Source: Oscillospiraceae bacterium (GTDB lineage: Bacteria > Bacillota > Clostridia > Saccharofermentanales > Saccharofermentanaceae). From it: a DNA stretch of 64,000 bases. The notes under the pieces are model-generated. The model saw only the letters and a list, made by a program, of their open reading frames with translations, did no database searches and was not told the DNA's origin. Both the position numbers and the translations under genes were made by a program. Below are positions 27,225 to 40,647 of this stretch, piece after piece. Location of the stretch: contig CADAKH010000008.1 of NCBI GenBank assembly GCA_902788505.1, forward strand, positions 16,870 through 80,869, given 5' to 3'. Positions within the stretch are counted from its first letter, which is position 1. Each line of letters begins with the position of its first letter.

Positions 27225-27929
27225 ATGAGGGGAATCGTTTTCGACATAGATGACACGCTCTACTGTAGACAGGATATGCTCGTTCAGGCGGCAGAGAGCG
27301 TTATTGGAGTTAAAGTCAGAGACTGGCGTGAATTCATAAGCATTTTCTACGAGAAGAGCGACATCAACATGGCAGCGCTCGAATCAGGAGAGATCTCCAC
27401 CAGGGACATAAACGGCTGGCGCTACAATGAGACATTCAGAATACTGGGTCTCCCCTTTAAGCCCGAAGACGGGTGCCTCTCGGCTGATGCATATCTTGAG
27501 CTTCAGAGCCACATGTTCTTAAGTGATGACATGAAGAAGGCATTGGACAGATTTGCTTCAGATCCTGAATTCAAGCTCGCGATACTTACAGCAGGCGAAT
27601 CAAAGCACCAGTGGCACAAAGTAGACATGCTCGGCCTTGATAAATGGTTCGACCGCGCAAATATTCTCGTTACCGGCGACACGGGCTTCTCGAAGCCTGA
27701 CATAAGATTATGCAGGATAATAGAAGACAATCTTGATCTTAAGCCCGGAGAACTTTGGATGATCGGTGACAATTACGACAAGGACATCACGGGAGCATTG
27801 GATTCAGGCTGGCATTCCATATGGATCAACAGAAGAAATCTTCCAAAGCCGGAAAGACTTCCCGACTATGAGGTCCTTACGGATAAAGAACTAACGGATC
27901 TTCTGCTTACGGATTTTTATAAGAATTAG
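27225..27929 (+). CDS. HAD-superfamily hydrolase
   Basis: 234 residues from ATG 27225, six bases after GGAG; a TTG one codon earlier is less well spaced. Motif I is FDIDDTLY, motif II is in LTAGES, the lysine of motif III is in FSKPDI, and motif IV reads MIGDNYDKDITGA. The cap of about 70 residues after motif I is helical (C1 type), as in phosphoglycolate-phosphatase-like enzymes. The substrate cannot be told. TATAAT at 27181-27186 is a likely -10. Its stop overlaps that of the converging radical SAM gene and no terminator separates them. Confidence 0.9.
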   Translation: MRGIVFDIDDTLYCRQDMLVQAAESVIGVKVRDWREFISIFYEKSDINMAALESGEISTRDINGWRYNETFRILGLPFKPEDGCLSADAYLELQSHMFLSDDMKKALDRFASDPEFKLAILTAGESKHQWHKVDMLGLDKWFDRANILVTGDTGFSKPDIRLCRIIEDNLDLKPGELWMIGDNYDKDITGALDSGWHSIWINRRNLPKPERLPDYEVLTDKELTDLLLTDFYKN

Positions 27930-28996
27930 GCTTTTACTGCAAAGAAATCAGCGAATTCCTTGGCATTATACTCGTAGAGCTCGTCGCCGAGTCTGTCGGC
28001 AACTTCAATTATCGTGCGTTCATACGTGCACTGTAGAGGAGATACTTTATCCGCGCTGCCGGTATTCATGCGGTTAGCACATCCGCAGGAATTCGTGCAT
28101 CTGCTCTTAAGGTCACATTCCTTGCATGTCTCAGGAGTATTGCTCTTAGCTGCGATCTTAGCCATGCGTTCTTTATCGAGTCCCTCGAAAACATTACCCA
28201 TGTAATACTCTTCGTCGTTTATAAAAGATGTGCACGGATAGATGTTGCCGTCGGGAGTTACAGAAAGCTGTCTTACGCCAAGATGGCAGTGCTCTGCAGG
28301 ATTCTTACCGTTAACACACTCTCTTATCTTGTTGACAAGCGGAGTGACATAATGCTTTCTTCCTGCCTTGAATTCATCTCTTAAGAAATCAGCTACCTTA
28401 TTGATCTCAACTTTATATACTTCAAGATCTTCGTCAGTCCATGAGACATTCTTGCCGTATGCCATGACAGTCGACACATCCCTGAAACCCAACGAAAGAA
28501 GATACTTTACGGAGTCGCATAAAACGCCGCATGCCTTGGGGTCGAGCGTCAGCATAGCCATAGTGTTCGGAAGATAGGACAGGATGAGTTTTGCCTTCTT
28601 CTCAAGAATTTCTGCAGTTGAACTTCCGTCAGGAAAACGTCTTGAAATGTCCTGACCTTTGCCGTCAAAAGAAAGTCCGATCTTCATGTTGACTGCCTTG
28701 GCTCTTTTTAAGAATTCCTCATCAATGAGAGTTCCGTTCGTGGTCATCTTGCAGGCGAAAGGAATGCCTGTCTCAGAAGTCTTCTTTTCGCAATAATCGA
28801 GAGCCTCATAGATGAGGTCTTTCTTTAACAGAGGCTCGCCTCCGAAAAAGCAAAAGCCCGCTTTGTTTCCTTTGGAATAAGCGAGGTCTATAGTCTTATA
28901 TAATGTCTCCAAAGACATGTCCCGGGGAGTCTTTTCTCTAAGGCAGTAACTGCATGCCATGTTGCAGTTCTCTGTAAGATGGACCGTAAAATTCAT
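27926..28996 (-). CDS. SPASM-domain radical SAM enzyme, candidate peptide maturase
   Basis: 356 residues. The radical SAM cluster ligands are Cys11, Cys15 and Cys18 (CNMACSYC), with the SAM motif FFGGEPLL. The C-terminal SPASM pattern is complete: Cys237, then Gly250-x4-Cys255, Cys291-x2-Cys294-x5-Cys300-x3-Cys304, and Cys323, enough for two extra iron-sulfur clusters. SPASM proteins modify peptides or protein side chains (sactipeptides, ranthipeptides, sulfatase maturation). Six bases upstream ends a small lipoprotein-like gene with a paralogue behind it; its ribosome site lies within that gene, implying coupled translation. These two peptides are the obvious candidate substrates; the reaction is unknown. 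Confidence 0.85.
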   Translation of the reverse strand: MNFTVHLTENCNMACSYCLREKTPRDMSLETLYKTIDLAYSKGNKAGFCFFGGEPLLKKDLIYEALDYCEKKTSETGIPFACKMTTNGTLIDEEFLKRAKAVNMKIGLSFDGKGQDISRRFPDGSSTAEILEKKAKLILSYLPNTMAMLTLDPKACGVLCDSVKYLLSLGFRDVSTVMAYGKNVSWTDEDLEVYKVEINKVADFLRDEFKAGRKHYVTPLVNKIRECVNGKNPAEHCHLGVRQLSVTPDGNIYPCTSFINDEEYYMGNVFEGLDKERMAKIAAKSNTPETCKECDLKSRCTNSCGCANRMNTGSADKVSPLQCTYERTIIEVADRLGDELYEYNAKEFADFFAVKA

Positions 28997-29002
28997 GTCA
29001 GA

Positions 29003-29209
29003 TCATTCCTCTGCTTCAGTTTCTTCAACCGCTTCGGTCTCAGCTGTCTGTGCAGCGCCTCCAAGCTGTACTTCGGTCTCGACAATATCCATACCGCCTG
29101 CAATCTGAGGTCCGCATGCAGTACCGAACAAAGCAGTTGCTCCAATAAGAGTTGCAATGCCGACAGCATACAAAGGCTTCTTATAATCATGTTTAGGATT
29201 TATCTTCAT
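29003..29209 (-). CDS. Small lipoprotein-like peptide A, candidate radical SAM substrate
   Basis: 68 residues after a strong GGGGGGAG site. Residues 1-34 (MKINPKHDYKKPLYAVG, a hydrophobic run, then FGTACGP with Cys32) form a basic N terminus, membrane segment and possible lipobox, although Gly rather than Leu is at -3. They differ from peptide B at only four of 34 positions. The remainder is acidic and repetitive: IVETEVQLGGAAQTAETEA, ending EETEAEE. The conserved leader with a variable tail, and the gene's position directly before a SPASM radical SAM enzyme, suggest a precursor peptide. A simple lipoprotein is the alternative. Confidence 0.6.
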   Translation of the reverse strand: MKINPKHDYKKPLYAVGIATLIGATALFGTACGPQIAGGMDIVETEVQLGGAAQTAETEAVEETEAEE

Positions 29210-29245
29210 ACTCTTCTCCCCCCTATTAAATAAATCAGATATGGA

Positions 29246-29536
29246 TCAAGTCTCCGGCTCACATACTGTTTCACCGCCGGCAAGCTCAACATCTGTAGGA
29301 TCTGTCTCAACAACTGCCACATCACCGTCAAGCTCAACATAACCGGGATCTATCGTCTCTTCACCCGCAAGCTCGATCTCTGGTTCTGAAGGCTTTGAGT
29401 CTCTGTTGCTCTTTGTTCTTCCGGCAGAATCTTTCGGACCGCAGGCCGTACCGAATAAAGCTGTTGCACCGATAAGAGTTACAACGCCGATAGCATATAA
29501 AGGTTTTTTATAATCGTGCTTAGGATCGATCTTCAT
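29246..29536 (-). CDS. Small lipoprotein-like peptide B with repeated VELAG motifs
   Basis: 96 residues from ATG 29536, eight bases after AAAGGAG; an upstream in-frame start would lie inside that site. Residues 1-34 are nearly the same as peptide A, with Cys32 in FGTACGP. The tail has three imperfect repeats: EIELAGEE...DPG, YVELDGDV...DPT and DVELAGGE...EPE, each about 15-18 residues; peptide A has one related unit, EVQLGG. A second cysteine is at 92. Repeated short motifs behind a conserved leader are a common feature of multi-core modified peptides. It lies 36 bases before peptide A in the same direction. Confidence 0.6.
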   Translation of the reverse strand: MKIDPKHDYKKPLYAIGVVTLIGATALFGTACGPKDSAGRTKSNRDSKPSEPEIELAGEETIDPGYVELDGDVAVVETDPTDVELAGGETVCEPET

Positions 29537-29663
29537 TTTTATGTCTCCTTTAATCAATCATAACATCTTTGGTTTTTCACCGGAAATCCGGCACCTTTTA
29601 ATCTATATACAGATAAGGAAAAAGAATTGTTGCATCGGATTTTATTTTTTTTATGGAAGTTAC

Positions 29664-30662: not shown

Positions 30663-30995
30663 TCACGGAAGAGGGATAGCGATCTTTGGTCCTTTAATCA
30701 ATTTCTGTTTGGCAATCTCTCTTGCCTCATCATATGTAATGGGATGGCCATTATAAAAATATTCATTGTCGCTGACAGGATGAGTGACGCAGGTAATGCC
30801 GATCGTTTCCCATGCTTTGCTCACTTTATCAGAACAGTCATTCCAGTTGAACGTAGCCTCAAAGCTGTTAAAATCTCCGTCCATAAGTCCATTCTTATGA
30901 AGAAATTCACTGTCATTTACGACCTCACCGATAACTCCGCCGCTTACGATTTCGAGATCTTTCATATCGAGATCTTTCATTTTTTTGTTTTTCAT
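30663..30995 (-). CDS. 110-residue peptide with double-glycine leader
   Basis: Start ATG 30995 seven bases after AAGGAGG. The N terminus MKNKKMKDLDMKDLEIVSGG is a classic double-glycine leader of the bacteriocin type (LEIVSGG, Gly19-Gly20), with a small duplication of MKDL. The predicted mature part (21-110) has two cysteines (54 and 69), aromatic residues around FNWNDC and YFYNG, and a hydrophobic Pro-rich end, KIAIPLP. At 90 residues it is long for a bacteriocin. No C39 peptidase/ABC exporter or immunity gene is adjacent. It could be a secreted signalling or antimicrobial peptide, or a modified-peptide precursor. I do not recognise the mature part. Confidence 0.65.
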   Translation of the reverse strand: MKNKKMKDLDMKDLEIVSGGVIGEVVNDSEFLHKNGLMDGDFNSFEATFNWNDCSDKVSKAWETIGITCVTHPVSDNEYFYNGHPITYDEAREIAKQKLIKGPKIAIPLP

Positions 30996-35199: not shown

Positions 35200-37503
35200 T
35201 TACTGGTTAAACTGTCTGCCTTTCTTCTTCCTTATCTTCTCATCATAAAGCAGTCTGTCAGCATTGTTCATCGCTTCGTAGATATCAACTTTACCGGCGA
35301 TCTTGAACTTATAAATACCTGTACTCATCTCAATGGGATAAGGCTTTCCGACGATCTGATTGTGTCTCTTTGTTACCTTCTCGATCCTCTCTTTCATTGA
35401 ATCGACATCACAGTCAGAACCTGTAACTGCCAGAGAAATGAATTCATCGCCTCCGATACGTCCTATGATATCCATGTCTCTGAATGATTCCTGAAGGACA
35501 TGGGCGATAGTCTTAAGTGCAAAGTCTCCGTCATCGTGGCCATACTTGTCATTGATCGTTTTAAGATTATCCATATCGGCATAACAGATGATCGCAACCT
35601 TTCCCTGATTGGAAGGCTCTTCCAATTCACGCTCAGCGTTTGTGATGAATCCTCTTCTGTTATAAAGACCCGTGAGCTCGTCTTTCTGGGCGATCTCTTC
35701 AAGTTTTGTATTGTCTCTTATAAATCTCTCAAGAGACATCTGCAAAGACTGCTTGACCTTGTTCTGTTCTTCTATCATGAACAAAGATCTGAGAGTGACT
35801 GAGAGCTGCGATGCAGCAGATGACACGCTGTATGAGCTCGTAATATCAAGTTCGTTCACAAGAAGACCGTATATATCCGCGCCTACGAACAAAGGTGCAA
35901 CGATCATAGTGCGGCGCCCGTCACCTTTAATGAATTCATTTTGGAAGATGCTCTCCGTGCGCAGGAGCTGCTTAGCTTCAGGCAAAGCTCTGAGGCCTTC
36001 ATCATCAAGAACAGCTTTAAGCAGGATCGATGCCGGCGGCATCCAGTCAGATGTTCCGTAATTCTTGATATTACCCTGGAACAGATACAGCAATGATTTC
36101 TTAAATCCGATTCCTTTAAGGCTTCCCAAAAGCTGTTCATAAGGAATCTCTCTTTCGTTCTCGATCAGGAAGACTTCACCAACCTGACGGTTGATAACAC
36201 CCTGCATCCTCTCATTCCTTCTTCTTGCAACATCTGCGGGAAGAGTACTCGAGAATGTCATGCGCCTGAAGTATTTTGAGAAAACATCATTTACGATTAC
36301 ACGGTCATGATCGTTAGTGAATAATCCAAGAGCCTTACTCTGCATCGCCTGAAAGGAATTGAAGCATTTCTCACGCGATGAAAGCAGGAAAAGATCTGTT
36401 CTTAAAAGCTCGTTAAAGCATTCATTCATAGCAGGTATCTTCGAAAACTTATCATCAGCTTTTAAGAAATCAACATAAGCCTCAACAAATCTGCCGAGAC
36501 ATTCTGATATCGGTTCATTATCAACAAAATCAGTGAAAAGATATTCCTCAAGGCCATTAAAGAAAGCGTTGCTGTCTTCTAAAACGCCTTCGAGTTTTAT
36601 ACGCCTGCAGATTGCGCTTATATCGAACTCATCACATCCGCAAGAGCTTCTCTGCACAAGGTGCGTATCAACGGTCATATCCCTTAATGCGGTTCCTTCC
36701 AGGTAATTTCCGGCATTAAGAACAGCTTTATAGGCCAGCGAAGCAGAGCTTGCTTCAACTGTGGTAAGAGGTGGCTCGAGCGAGATTGCAAAAGCATCAT
36801 CATCAAAGCCTCCGATCAGAATATCCTTGCCCGGAACAAGTCCTCTTTTTCTAAGTGCTGTATAACCGCCGGCAGCCATGGAATCGTTGGCGAAAACGAT
36901 TGCATCAAGATGATCGTTATTGTTTAAAAGCTCCTTGATCTGTTCTTCACAGTTCATCGAGAAGTCGCCATATACGACCTTATGCGCATCAAAAGGAATG
37001 CCGTTCTTCTTAATCACTTCTTTATATATGCCAAGTCTTTCAAGTGCATCCCGGTTGGTTACGGGACCTGATACAAAGCCGATATCTTTTGCGTTGTGCT
37101 TTTCGATAAAATGTGTCAAAAGCTCTGTCAGACCTGAACGGTTATTGAATGTAACCGACGGATAGCCTTCAAAATCAGAGAACAGGCAGACGACCGGAAC
37201 ATTCGGCATCTTTTTAAGAAATCTCTGCTGGGTTTCCAAATCAGCTCTCGAGCAGATCATTCCCTGAAGGATATAGATGATATCAACATTTCTTTCTGTC
37301 GGAAGGCTGAAGATAGAATTATACTGATACTCATATTTCTTATCCGCATATCTGCTGTCGGTCTTCCCGATATAGTGGCCTGGAAAGATAAACAGATTTG
37401 CATCAAGAGCTTTGGCTGCCTGTTCGGCGCCAATCGCTGCCTGATTGGTAAAGTAATTATCTATATCATCAACGATCAAACCTATATTGATCCTGCGGTC
37501 CAT
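35200..37503 (-). CDS. Diguanylate cyclase with a LacI-type ligand-binding sensor
   Basis: 767 residues, no signal peptide and no HTH. Residues about 5-285 are a periplasmic-binding-protein fold of the LacI/GalR kind (GLIVDDIDNYFTNQ, IGFVSGP, AIVFANDSMAAGGYTALRKRG, IGGFDDD), followed by SSCGC. A roughly 300-residue middle part is helical and possibly GAF-like. The C-terminal GGDEF domain (about 600-767) has intact RIGGDEF (684-688) and a product-inhibition RxxD site (RDMD, 675-678), five residues upstream. It should make cyclic di-GMP in response to a small, perhaps sugar, ligand. It lies 24 bases after a paralogue in an apparent three-gene unit. Confidence 0.88.
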   Translation of the reverse strand: MDRRINIGLIVDDIDNYFTNQAAIGAEQAAKALDANLFIFPGHYIGKTDSRYADKKYEYQYNSIFSLPTERNVDIIYILQGMICSRADLETQQRFLKKMPNVPVVCLFSDFEGYPSVTFNNRSGLTELLTHFIEKHNAKDIGFVSGPVTNRDALERLGIYKEVIKKNGIPFDAHKVVYGDFSMNCEEQIKELLNNNDHLDAIVFANDSMAAGGYTALRKRGLVPGKDILIGGFDDDAFAISLEPPLTTVEASSASLAYKAVLNAGNYLEGTALRDMTVDTHLVQRSSCGCDEFDISAICRRIKLEGVLEDSNAFFNGLEEYLFTDFVDNEPISECLGRFVEAYVDFLKADDKFSKIPAMNECFNELLRTDLFLLSSREKCFNSFQAMQSKALGLFTNDHDRVIVNDVFSKYFRRMTFSSTLPADVARRRNERMQGVINRQVGEVFLIENEREIPYEQLLGSLKGIGFKKSLLYLFQGNIKNYGTSDWMPPASILLKAVLDDEGLRALPEAKQLLRTESIFQNEFIKGDGRRTMIVAPLFVGADIYGLLVNELDITSSYSVSSAASQLSVTLRSLFMIEEQNKVKQSLQMSLERFIRDNTKLEEIAQKDELTGLYNRRGFITNAERELEEPSNQGKVAIICYADMDNLKTINDKYGHDDGDFALKTIAHVLQESFRDMDIIGRIGGDEFISLAVTGSDCDVDSMKERIEKVTKRHNQIVGKPYPIEMSTGIYKFKIAGKVDIYEAMNNADRLLYDEKIRKKKGRQFNQ

Positions 37504-37527: not shown

Positions 37528-40500
37528 TCAGATGCCGCGTTCTTTTTTTCTTTCCATCTTGTCGGCATACATCCCGGAATCGGCTTCCGTGATCATATCT
37601 TCAATATTTATGCGGCTGTCAATCGTTCTTTCAGAGACACCGAGACTTGCATAAACTTTAAAAGGCTTGCCGGTCATAGCAGGGTCACTGTCTGCAGCTT
37701 CCTCTATCTCATTTCTGATCTTCCCTATCTCGCCTTCAAGATTCTTATCGCCGATGATCGCAAAAGCAAATTCATCACCGCCGTATCTGGCTGCAATACC
37801 GTTATCTCTTACATACTTCATGATCGCTCTTGCAAGAGTCTGGATAGCGATATCCCCGTTCTCATGTCCGTATGTATCGTTTATTGCCTTAAGCTTATCC
37901 ATATCGATCGAGAACAGAGATAATATCCTGCCTGAATTGGAAGACTCATTAAGAAGTTTTTTAATAACTGCGAAAAATCCTCTTCTGTTGTACAGTCCTG
38001 TAAGGAAATCCTGCTCCGACAGCAGCTCGTTTGTACGGCTTGTTGATATGAGTTTGCGATTGTTGTTGACCGCATTTACGGCAGCGTTAATGAAGTGGCC
38101 GAACTCCTCAAATCTCTGCTCGGATCTCATAGTTACGGAATCATAACCGTTAATGACATAACCGAAAGACTCGGTATTGGATCTTATCTGTTTGAACAGA
38201 AGAACATTGATATTACTGCTTCTTGATAAGATGATGTCGTAATCCGGGATCGGATATATCATGCGGTAGAATTTCTGTGCAAAGGTGTACTTGTTCTCCC
38301 TGCCATGGAAAATGGCATGGCAGCATTCATCCAGTTCCGTTACACCGACAAAATAATACTGGCTGCGCCACATCCAGATGGAATTCTGAAGATTGTCGGC
38401 AGCTTCATCGAGATTATCGGATGAAGTCATACGCGAAACGAAACGGCCCATCTCAAGCATGTGTCTGAACGAATCCTGATTCTCTGCCGCGAGTTCATCA
38501 ACGATCCGTGACCACGGGAATTCGGAACTCTTTCTGCATCCGCAGGACTGCATGAACATCGACCTGTAAGGAATAAAGAATGAATCTTCTTTTTTGTTTT
38601 TGATCTTATCCCATTCGCGTATCCTCGACAGGATGTTAGCTGAGATCTGCTCATAATCAAGTTCGCATGTGGTCAATACCGGATCGTTATACTGTCCCTG
38701 CCAGATGCCGTCAAAGCCTGTAACAATAACGTCTCCGGGAATGCTTATCTCATGTTTTCTGAGCGCATCGATTACACCTAAAGCCATGGAATCGTTAGCA
38801 CAGATGATCGCATCGGGGAGTTCGTACTCACTGCTCTCCAAAAGCTCGTTCATAACATTGAACGCTGGTGCTTCCCAGAAATCACCGTAATAAATATGCG
38901 CTTCCGAAGGATCTATATCGTGTTCTTTAAGAACTCTCTTGAATATCATGATCCTCTCTTCCGAGAAGGGATTATCACGGAATCCGCCGAACATATCGAG
39001 CTTCTTTGCACCGTGAACCTCTATGACATGTTTTACAATAGTCTCGAATGCAGTACCGTATTCGAAATCAGCATTTATGCAGCCCTCAACAGGATGCTGG
39101 AAAGTAATTACCGGAATGTCCTTCTCATGTCCTATCCCGGCAAGTCTGTCGATTACATCTTTGGACTTGATCATCTCACCGAAAATAATGATCGCGGCAA
39201 GATCCATCCTCAAAAGAAGGTTTGCAAAATTCAGTTCAAGTTCAGTCTGGACCGGATCCGGATTATCAACGTTAAATGTAAAGCTTGAGACTATATAATC
39301 CCTGTTGATCTCTTCGGTCTGAAGAGCTCTTAAGAACAGACTGTAGTTATCCGAATCATCCCACACACCGCATACGGCAATGAGTTTGCGGGTCTCTTTT
39401 ATTCCTTCCCTTCTTCTGAGAATGATATTTCTTATGTGGATAGAAGCCTTTGAGACAGCATTTATTGCAAAGATAATGGATGCGCTCTCATAATCTTTCG
39501 GCGCTTCGAATACCATACGGTGCTTCTGCCAGTTGCAGTCAAGCGAGATAACATACGGTTCGGTGATCTGTTCGCTATTCCCATCATCAGACTTGAAGAT
39601 GCATCTGATAGAGCGAGCTTCGTCAGCTCTTCCCTCAAACGCGAATTCATAGAATTCGCCTTCCCTGAAAGTGAATCCGCCCTGCAAAAGTCTTGTCTCA
39701 CCCGAGACACCTGATATATAAGACGGGGTGATGATGAGCTCGTCTTCCATAAAGCTCACATTTGTGCTCAGATCGCCTTCCGCAATATAAAAAGCATTAT
39801 TCCTGTTAACTTTGCCGGAACCATCCGTATCGAGATCAAGGACTCTTGCAGGTCTCGTGACCTGTCTGTTATAGATAGGCTTCTGATAAAGTCTTACATA
39901 ATCGATAAGGAGTTTTGAATCGTTATCTTCCGTTCCTGCCTCCGGACCTGACTTATCTTCAGGGAAAGCAACACCTATTACCAGGTGGAACGACTTGTTG
40001 AAAGGCGCCGGATAAGGCTCTTCTGTTTCACCGGTTCTTGAGAACCAGTATGAAGTCCTGTAATACTCTTTTCCGTCACATGAGAATATTATCTCATCCT
40101 GATCCCACTCACATGCAAATATATGGAAATCCTTTGCAAAGTCGGTATTTAGTCTGTGGAAATTACCTGAGCGCTGTGTATAAGGATAACCGAATGCAAT
40201 ACCGGAGAATGCCTCATCAGTCTTAGAACCGGAAACCTCGCAAACATTGATCTGACCGTGAAGCGGGAATTCCTTATATTCATCCTTTTCGCTGTCATAG
40301 CCTTCAGTGGGCATAAGCCTGATATAGCTTAAGGCTCCATTTGCTTTGGGGAATCTGACTCTGATTATCAGCTTGCCGTATGTGAAGTCCTTTTTGAAAA
40401 GCGTGGAGATGCGTCCGGAAAGATATCTCATCTCCCCGTTACTGTCAGTTGTTATCTTTGGACTTATGGAAATGCAGCCGTCTTTTATTCCAAGACATTT

Positions 40501-40647
40501 AAAGCCGCAGTATTCCTGACGCTCGCCTTTATACCATCCGGGCGCACGCGTTTCAGCGCTCCAGACTGATTCGTTGATAGCATTACTGTTAAACTCTTCG
40601 GACCAGACAATGTGGTATCCGTCCGGCAGCGAAACTTTGTCACTCAT
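37528..40647 (-). CDS. GH16-like / carbohydrate-binding / sugar-sensor / GGDEF fusion protein
   Basis: 1039 residues, no signal peptide. Residues about 10-256 have a GH16 glucanase fold (YHIVWSEEFN at the start, LLIDYVRLYQ at the end), but the catalytic GEIDIMEY reads GQINVCEV (131-138): the nucleophile Glu is Gln132 and the helper Asp is Asn134; only Glu137 remains. Residues about 265-410 look like a CBM4/9-type jelly roll. Residues about 415-700 are a LacI-type binding domain (AIICANDSMALGVIDALRKH) ending in SCGC. The C terminus is a GGDEF domain with YGGDEF (956-960); the inhibition site reads RDNG and is not intact. Probably a cytoplasmic oligosaccharide sensor making cyclic di-GMP. No clear ribosome site. 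Confidence 0.8.
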   Translation of the reverse strand: MSDKVSLPDGYHIVWSEEFNSNAINESVWSAETRAPGWYKGERQEYCGFKCLGIKDGCISISPKITTDSNGEMRYLSGRISTLFKKDFTYGKLIIRVRFPKANGALSYIRLMPTEGYDSEKDEYKEFPLHGQINVCEVSGSKTDEAFSGIAFGYPYTQRSGNFHRLNTDFAKDFHIFACEWDQDEIIFSCDGKEYYRTSYWFSRTGETEEPYPAPFNKSFHLVIGVAFPEDKSGPEAGTEDNDSKLLIDYVRLYQKPIYNRQVTRPARVLDLDTDGSGKVNRNNAFYIAEGDLSTNVSFMEDELIITPSYISGVSGETRLLQGGFTFREGEFYEFAFEGRADEARSIRCIFKSDDGNSEQITEPYVISLDCNWQKHRMVFEAPKDYESASIIFAINAVSKASIHIRNIILRRREGIKETRKLIAVCGVWDDSDNYSLFLRALQTEEINRDYIVSSFTFNVDNPDPVQTELELNFANLLLRMDLAAIIIFGEMIKSKDVIDRLAGIGHEKDIPVITFQHPVEGCINADFEYGTAFETIVKHVIEVHGAKKLDMFGGFRDNPFSEERIMIFKRVLKEHDIDPSEAHIYYGDFWEAPAFNVMNELLESSEYELPDAIICANDSMALGVIDALRKHEISIPGDVIVTGFDGIWQGQYNDPVLTTCELDYEQISANILSRIREWDKIKNKKEDSFFIPYRSMFMQSCGCRKSSEFPWSRIVDELAAENQDSFRHMLEMGRFVSRMTSSDNLDEAADNLQNSIWMWRSQYYFVGVTELDECCHAIFHGRENKYTFAQKFYRMIYPIPDYDIILSRSSNINVLLFKQIRSNTESFGYVINGYDSVTMRSEQRFEEFGHFINAAVNAVNNNRKLISTSRTNELLSEQDFLTGLYNRRGFFAVIKKLLNESSNSGRILSLFSIDMDKLKAINDTYGHENGDIAIQTLARAIMKYVRDNGIAARYGGDEFAFAIIGDKNLEGEIGKIRNEIEEAADSDPAMTGKPFKVYASLGVSERTIDSRINIEDMITEADSGMYADKMERKKERGI

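Follow-up and report, generated by a model that had tools for sequence, protein, structure and literature searches.

A SPASM-type radical S-adenosylmethionine (radical SAM) enzyme and the lipoprotein-type precursors encoded next to it form a real and widely conserved two-gene system, represented here in an Oscillospiraceae bacterium of the family Saccharofermentanaceae (assembly GCA_902788505.1, contig CADAKH010000008.1, positions 16,870 to 80,869). The analyzed stretch of 64,000 nucleotides, hereinafter the window, carries the enzyme gene together with two precursor genes, peptides A and B. The reading that we favor, and that we consider on balance probable, is that the enzyme recognizes the leader of the precursors, which is their predicted lipoprotein signal peptide, and forms one bond in each copy of a short L-x-G unit before export and lipid anchoring at the cell surface. 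Confidence is high for the architecture and only a little better than even for the exact chemistry; it is from sequence that we infer the modification by the enzyme, as well as the docking, the site, and the product. The system would work like a radical SAM pathway for ribosomally synthesized and posttranslationally modified peptides (RiPPs) with a lipoprotein leader.

The three genes lie on the minus strand of the window in the order peptide B, peptide A, enzyme. Peptide B (29246..29536) was read from the sequence as a lipoprotein-type precursor of 96 amino acids with three repeat units, and peptide A (29003..29209), directly upstream of the enzyme, as one of 68 amino acids. The initial annotation had placed the enzyme gene (27926..28996; 356 amino acids) six bases behind peptide A, with its ribosome site within that gene, and both points were borne out: the stop codon of peptide A ends 6 bases before the enzyme ATG, and a ribosome-site-like AGAGGA lies inside the peptide A gene (29007..29012, minus strand). 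The corresponding sequence of peptide B is AGGAG (29545..29549). Promoter and terminator scans gave nothing better than shuffles. Peptide B has 70 homologues at an E value of ≤1e-3, and peptide A is a recurrent paralogue. Both end earlier than their relatives; peptide A has ca. 40 codons fewer than the close ones, in frame, and is without a further unit and Cys.

The enzyme is a complete SPASM protein, as first described. It has the radical SAM motif Cys11-x3-Cys15-x2-Cys18 (28943..28966), conserved in 75 of 76 near homologues (with one gap) and in all 16 far ones, GGEP at residues 52 to 55, and the SPASM set C237, C255, C291, C294, C300, C304, and C323 (28028..28288). The homologues keep GGEP and the SPASM Cys as well. 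Membership in the radical SAM/SPASM group is shown by the CX3CX2C motif, the Pfam SPASM match, and the seven-Cys SPASM pattern. Cys306, just past C304 and outside the canonical ligands, was found in 76/76 near and 15/16 far homologues. The alignment behind these counts left out 4 of 80 near enzymes and the enzyme of locus L222, in which a stop falls inside the matched stretch. One distant enzyme (L220:3859-4914), preceded by three leader proteins, has a SPASM stretch without Cys at the places of C304 and C306 (CNYAYDNLN).

Among curated families, the best match was PapB (NF047865), with 186.3 bits, below the cut-off of 340 bits. Six relatives of the enzyme behaved similarly, with PapB as the top curated family at 180 to 229 bits. 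The window enzyme has no N-terminal extension, and its model begins at residue 94 of CteB, the SCIFF maturase, the ca. 93 further N-terminal residues of which are the RRE (RiPP recognition element) domain. The substrate of CteB (PDB 5wgg, TIGR03974) is also Cys rich, its family being named six_Cys, whereas most units described here are without Cys. The name of family TIGR04133 (rSAM_w_lipo), radical SAM/SPASM enzymes paired with a lipoprotein in Bacteroidetes, also implies an enzyme-lipoprotein pair, but this is a different subfamily (47.3 bits for the window enzyme versus a cut-off of 425). ChlB, a cyclophane synthase with 16% identity to the window enzyme, has no long N-terminal extension either, its residue 8 aligning with the window enzyme's start. 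The entry for ChlB (PDB 9gm3) describes the enzyme bound to the leader region of its substrate, which sets a precedent for docking to a leader in the absence of an N-terminal RRE.

A search for relatives of the enzyme gave 2,471. In order to evaluate the pairing of enzyme and precursor, we used the best 80 of 151 matching loci from a scan of GTDB species contigs (the loci numbered L here). They derive largely from rumen and gut metagenome-assembled genomes named Saccharofermentans, Ruminococcaceae, Lachnospiraceae, Oscillospiraceae, Clostridiales, and Ruminococcus, plus a few named strains, Ruminococcaceae bacterium KHP2, AB4001, YAD3003, and YRB3002 among them. The set includes near-identical loci, and some loci are contigs of genomes that are also in the same-genus set described below, so that the counts are not independent. 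Seventy loci had at least 1.4 kb upstream of the enzyme and were testable; the ten excluded had less (four show a precursor, and six have ≤158 bases). A leader peptide was found upstream in 69 of the 70, with a hidden Markov model (HMM) alone detecting 65, a regular expression alone 60, the two combined 68, and reading by eye one more (L109). Searched with the HMM, which covers residues 1 to 34, 3,806 open reading frames (ORFs) yielded 104 matches, 103 of them upstream on the enzyme strand and one (L087) just downstream. Two or more precursors were present in 26/70 loci by the regular expression, with up to five per locus. The end of the nearest precursor lay close to the enzyme start in 63 of the 64 loci measured, from an overlap of 26 nt at one extreme to a gap of 49 nt at the other; an overlap of 4 nt was seen in 13 loci. 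Along similar lines, among ORFs of ≥90 amino acids at the 80 loci, no family but the lipoprotein recurred widely (52 loci and 68 genes, all upstream and on the same strand). Since the next most frequent one reached 10 of 80 loci and none exceeded that number, we consider this a two-gene system.

The same picture emerged from whole genomes. Within the genus, the enzyme (E value of ≤1e-60) was present in 34 of 59 sampled genomes, and the leader (E value of ≤1e-4) was found in 34/34 enzyme-bearing versus 1/25 enzyme-free genomes (Fisher test, 1.2e-15, uncorrected for phylogeny). A peptide match in genome G024 (E value of 1.8e-4) was weak, was not confirmed by the leader profile, and was discarded. 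Sampling outside the genus detected kin of the enzyme in 8 of 391 genomes of the class and, besides the window's own, in 2 of 299 genomes of the phylum. The 17 enzymes found outside the genus in all are 34 to 43% identical to that of the window (16 measured), and all adjoin such lipoproteins: upstream in 15 cases, ca. 750 bp downstream in L215, and partially in L221, where the upstream sequence shows just the C terminus of one. The initial annotation had named homologues consistently lacking the peptides as the finding that would speak against the pair; that check was run, and the peptides are kept at 69/70 named and 17/17 distant loci.

The leader has the consensus MKIxPxKxYKKPLYAxG...(T)GC, based on 35 leaders picked mostly by a regular expression that requires the Cys and Pro/Arg, so that their invariance is partly built in. 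In the window, 30 of the first 34 residues agree between peptides A and B, as had been noted before. The leaders occupy residues 1 to 31 (29117..29209 in A, with a leader profile E value of 2.7e-16 in its own genome, and 29444..29536 in B, with 1.1e-15), followed by the lipobox Cys32 (29114-29116 and 29441-29443, respectively). The proposed resemblance to a lipoprotein signal gained support, with a lipobox Cys in 103 of 104 leader HMM matches (judged by alignment and eye, with 100 identified by script and 3 more on inspection of its list), most often as xTGC, and with Lgt and LspA encoded in the window's genome. The leaders thus show the basic n-region, the hydrophobic stretch, and the lipobox Cys of bacterial lipoproteins. 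The conserved n-region of ca. 15 residues exceeds what secretion is known to need.

At enzyme identities of 55 to 65% (867 pairs of 61 loci), leaders were 48% identical and tails 25%, which fits the precursor logic suggested in the initial annotation, a conserved leader with variable, repeat-bearing tails. These are the attributes of a RiPP precursor: a ribosomal product with a conserved leader and a variable core, beside a candidate modifying enzyme. Distances among leaders and among enzymes were correlated (0.66; 0/2,000 permutations), but the shared descent of the species is not factored out of this value, and we do not count it as proof. Peptides A and B and 10 diverse precursors matched no NCBIfam family above the cut-off, and A and B matched no Pfam family. 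A phage origin was rejected, with no PHROG match for B and one at an E value of 0.06 for A.

Given that the leader is the most conserved part, and that repeats are scarce or missing in some of the leader proteins that have globular parts, the enzyme might instead modify the leader or lipobox region, or use the lipoprotein as a scaffold, with the repeats serving otherwise, for example, as an acidic stalk. We regard this as distinctly improbable. The invariant Gly and the preferred spacing of the repeats (see below) are kept across genera, and a change made in the leader would be lost because LspA would remove it.

The tails are strongly acidic (median net charge of -15 in 58 short tails) and carry the repeated units. 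When residue pairs were ranked over the first 120 residues of 82 nonredundant tails (in 3 of which a Cys ahead of the lipobox was taken for it by the script, leaving a few leader residues in the tail), L-2-G came first (178 observed versus 30.5 expected), followed by V-4-G, G-2-V, A-1-G, V-2-L, and L-6-V. The pattern [EDQR]LxG[DEG] occurred 84 times in the same tails versus 4.0 expected (standard deviation, 2.0; maximum, 11; 200 shuffle rounds). The consensus of the unit is V-E-L-x-G-(D/E)-V-x-V, with hydrophobic residues at alternate positions. Gly was invariant (60/60) under a pattern that leaves its position free, L or Y predominates two positions earlier, and A, D, or E immediately before it (A 18, D 15, E 6, S 2, G 1, M 1, and V 1 in 44 [VI][EDQ]LxG[DEG] units). 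Spacing between units peaks at 16 residues, and their number per tail ranges from 0 to 9 under a loose pattern.

In peptide B, the three units previously described were confirmed; they read EIELAGE, YVELDGD, and DVELAGG, with LAGE in EIELAGEETIDP (29360..29371), LDGD in YVELDGDVAVVE (29321..29332), and LAGG in DVELAGGETVCE (29273..29284), the last followed by an optional Cys at +5 from the Gly. Peptide A has the one clear related unit attributed to it, EVQLGG (LGGA in EVQLGGAAQ, 29054..29065). As for the repeated VELAG motif that had been claimed, the repeated units are present, but the motif is broader than VELAG, with a core of [LYIT]-x-G.

Cys residues beyond the lipobox are irregular in these tails. 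Among the 58 short ones, 19 have none, 35 a single one, and 39 at least one, and 15 of 83 tail Cys stand exactly five residues past the motif Gly. The Cys at +5 is therefore an optional extra and not a rule; perhaps some of the units yield a second product that depends on this Cys. These data bear on another reading, in which the enzyme would be a genuine ranthipeptide-type maturase, joining the tail Cys, where there is one, to an Asp or Glu close by, with the Cys-free repeats as mere spacers. PapB as the best family match, the 39 tails with extra Cys, and the 15 Cys at the fixed place past the Gly would agree with it. Nevertheless, the 19 short tails without Cys, to which the Cys-free tail of peptide A can be added, the missed PapB cut-off, and a Cys-to-acid spacing that is not fixed make such an activity quite unlikely. 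The repeated Cys-X3-Asp/Glu of PapB-type precursors is not the pattern of these tails, and an obligatory Cys thioether was rejected, as Cys-free tails exist.

Under the favored reading, one bond per L-x-G unit, the enzyme would dock on the leader n-region, at P-x(6)-P-x-Y-A, a place suggested by the lack of any RRE-like extension at the N terminus of the enzyme. It would reach each unit within the flexible tail, abstract a hydrogen from a backbone or side-chain position adjoining the invariant Gly, and form one bond per unit, giving a -2 Da product (C-C or C-O) for which no Cys would be needed. After modification, the precursor would be exported by Sec and lipidated by Lgt, and its leader would be removed by LspA (signal peptidase II), leaving a lipid-anchored surface stalk as the end product. 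With Sec export and signal peptidase II acting on the leader, no dedicated protease or exporter would thus be needed.

A bond-forming outcome is preferred because the characterized relatives PapB and TvgB lose 2 Da. PapB causes a 2 Da loss per thioether (PMC9413430). Like the window enzyme, it is a SPASM radical SAM protein, and it acts several times on a single precursor, at short motifs; it differs in that the precursor here is lipoprotein-like and in the low family score mentioned above. TvgB repeatedly modifies a tandem TVGG repeat to cyclopropylglycine, with a loss of 2 Da at Val (PMC9062424). That repeat is Cys free and contains Gly, as does the unit described here, but the Val or Ile directly before Gly is not matched, and cyclopropane formation as in TVGG was rejected as the general reaction since Val/Ile almost never precede the Gly. 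By the tests made, the system is not PapB, TIGR04133, or TvgB/TigE, TigE (PDB 8vpo) being, like TvgB, a cyclopropyl synthase. Because a mostly Cys-free, Gly-centered repeat does not fit the characterized SPASM products compared, the bond formed may be new.

The main rival keeps the same architecture and makes the enzyme an epimerase, which would convert the residue before Gly (A, D, or E), or the preceding L or Y, to the D form with no change in mass. Epimerization tolerates many side chains, which fits the variable residues around the invariant Gly, and the conserved Cys306 could be the hydrogen donor. With the 2 Da losses of PapB and TvgB on the side of bond formation, we consider epimerization unlikely.

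Several observations weigh against one bond per L-x-G unit, or against the pairing itself. The side chains around the Gly vary and offer no obvious bond partner; [LIMY]xG[DEG] is absent from 13 of 82 tails, and 6 have no unit at all even under a looser pattern. Three leader lipoproteins encoded elsewhere in the genus (L191, L192, and L205) show no clear unit, and secretion alone could account for part of the leader conservation. At L087, the upstream leader peptide is without the lipobox Cys, and a leader lipoprotein lies just downstream of the enzyme. Genome G081 (85% complete) has a leader lipoprotein and no enzyme that we could find, whereas the L085 enzyme (56% identity) has no leader peptide in the 5 kb upstream. 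L085 could suggest that the neighbors are functionally unrelated, an orphan radical SAM enzyme standing beside ordinary acidic lipoproteins. That explanation is very unlikely in view of the co-occurrence, seen in 69/70 and 17/17 neighborhoods and in 34/34 genomes, with every other family confined to 10 or fewer of the 80 loci. As regards the exceptions themselves, the peptide of L087 (L087:4786-5004) keeps the leader n-region and a TGGIV unit, and the L085 enzyme adjoins an opposite-strand gene, with an ABC transporter-like gene downstream.

The distant loci add one more point of this kind, since at 8 of 17 of them a stretch (H/N)GxGRGxxGC replaces the unit in the precursors, within a full core of (H/N)GxGRGxxGC...FLSEEEA; the L-x-G unit may therefore not be the target everywhere. 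A second, longer leader type (YPxxE..LLKxxPxRWK and variants) was found at 11/17 distant loci, and this distant clade comprises L212, L214 to L220, L222, L225, and L226. LAGD is kept at L219 and L222, and LAG units are kept at L208, L209, L211, and L213. These lipoproteins beside PapB-like enzymes of other clostridial families are possibly a sister system with another modification.

A signal peptide in the role of a leader has a precedent in the bufferins. These are RiPPs modified by multinuclear nonheme iron-dependent oxidases (MNIOs), and they carry a Sec signal peptide where a typical leader would be expected; ca. 16% of Buf2 precursors are predicted to be lipoproteins, and the precursors include long ones and fusions (PMC12452194). 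They differ from the system described here in the enzyme superfamily (an MNIO with a partner protein) and in their Cys-containing motifs. In the open-licence literature, we found no description of a system like the one in the window, and nothing like it appears in the available portions of a study of graspetide loci with lipoproteins (PMC8939145) or of an RRE survey (PMC12710340). If the favored reading is correct, RiPP-type radical chemistry would modify anchored surface proteins and not a small secreted product, an ordinary lipoprotein signal peptide would be the leader, and the ordinary lipoprotein pathway would carry out leader removal and export. The enzyme-precursor pair is a minimal, testable two-gene system.

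Leader proteins also occur away from the enzyme. In the window's genome (87% complete assembly), the leader profile found only peptides A and B, with a third match at an E value of 0.056. A third match in the peptide search (L003; E value of 0.019) was attributed to chance, as it lies inside a 315-amino-acid hydrolase-like ORF without a leader. Relatives encode further proteins with the same leader away from the enzyme, several of them of 200 to 400 amino acids with globular parts; nine larger leader proteins, beside or away from the enzyme, had no Pfam match above the cut-off. One of those away from the enzyme (L195:2270-3433) contains a HELTH metallopeptidase-like sequence, also without a Pfam match.

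A model of the Ruminococcus-type precursor A5, built with its relatives, had a mean predicted local distance difference test (pLDDT) score of 67, with residues 14 to 94 almost all <50 and the domain mostly >80. The stalk, which holds most of the units and is followed by the folded domain, is likely disordered according to this model. The globular C-terminal domain had no Foldseek match in the PDB at an E value of ≤0.001, and because of this no function can be named for it. The arrangement suggests that leader and stalk are a portable tag. We put forward only tentatively, as a possibility that we doubt more than we believe, a general lipoprotein modification system of gut Clostridia, in which the signal peptide would be the docking tag and a single radical SAM enzyme would rewrite Gly-centered repeats in the surface stalks of many lipoproteins, encoded beside the enzyme and elsewhere and including large globular ones. 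This would be a backbone-centered chemistry not seen before, and these would be the first radical SAM-modified display lipoproteins.

Elsewhere in the window, a 110-amino-acid ORF on the minus strand (30663-30995), with no Pfam or NCBIfam match, has an N terminus (MKDLEIVSGG) like that of a double-glycine leader peptide. Also on the minus strand, a protein of 1,039 amino acids (37528-40647) is an unusual fusion of glycosyl hydrolase family 16, LacI-type periplasmic-binding, and GGDEF domains, and beside it a second LacI-type-GGDEF protein is encoded at 35200-37503.

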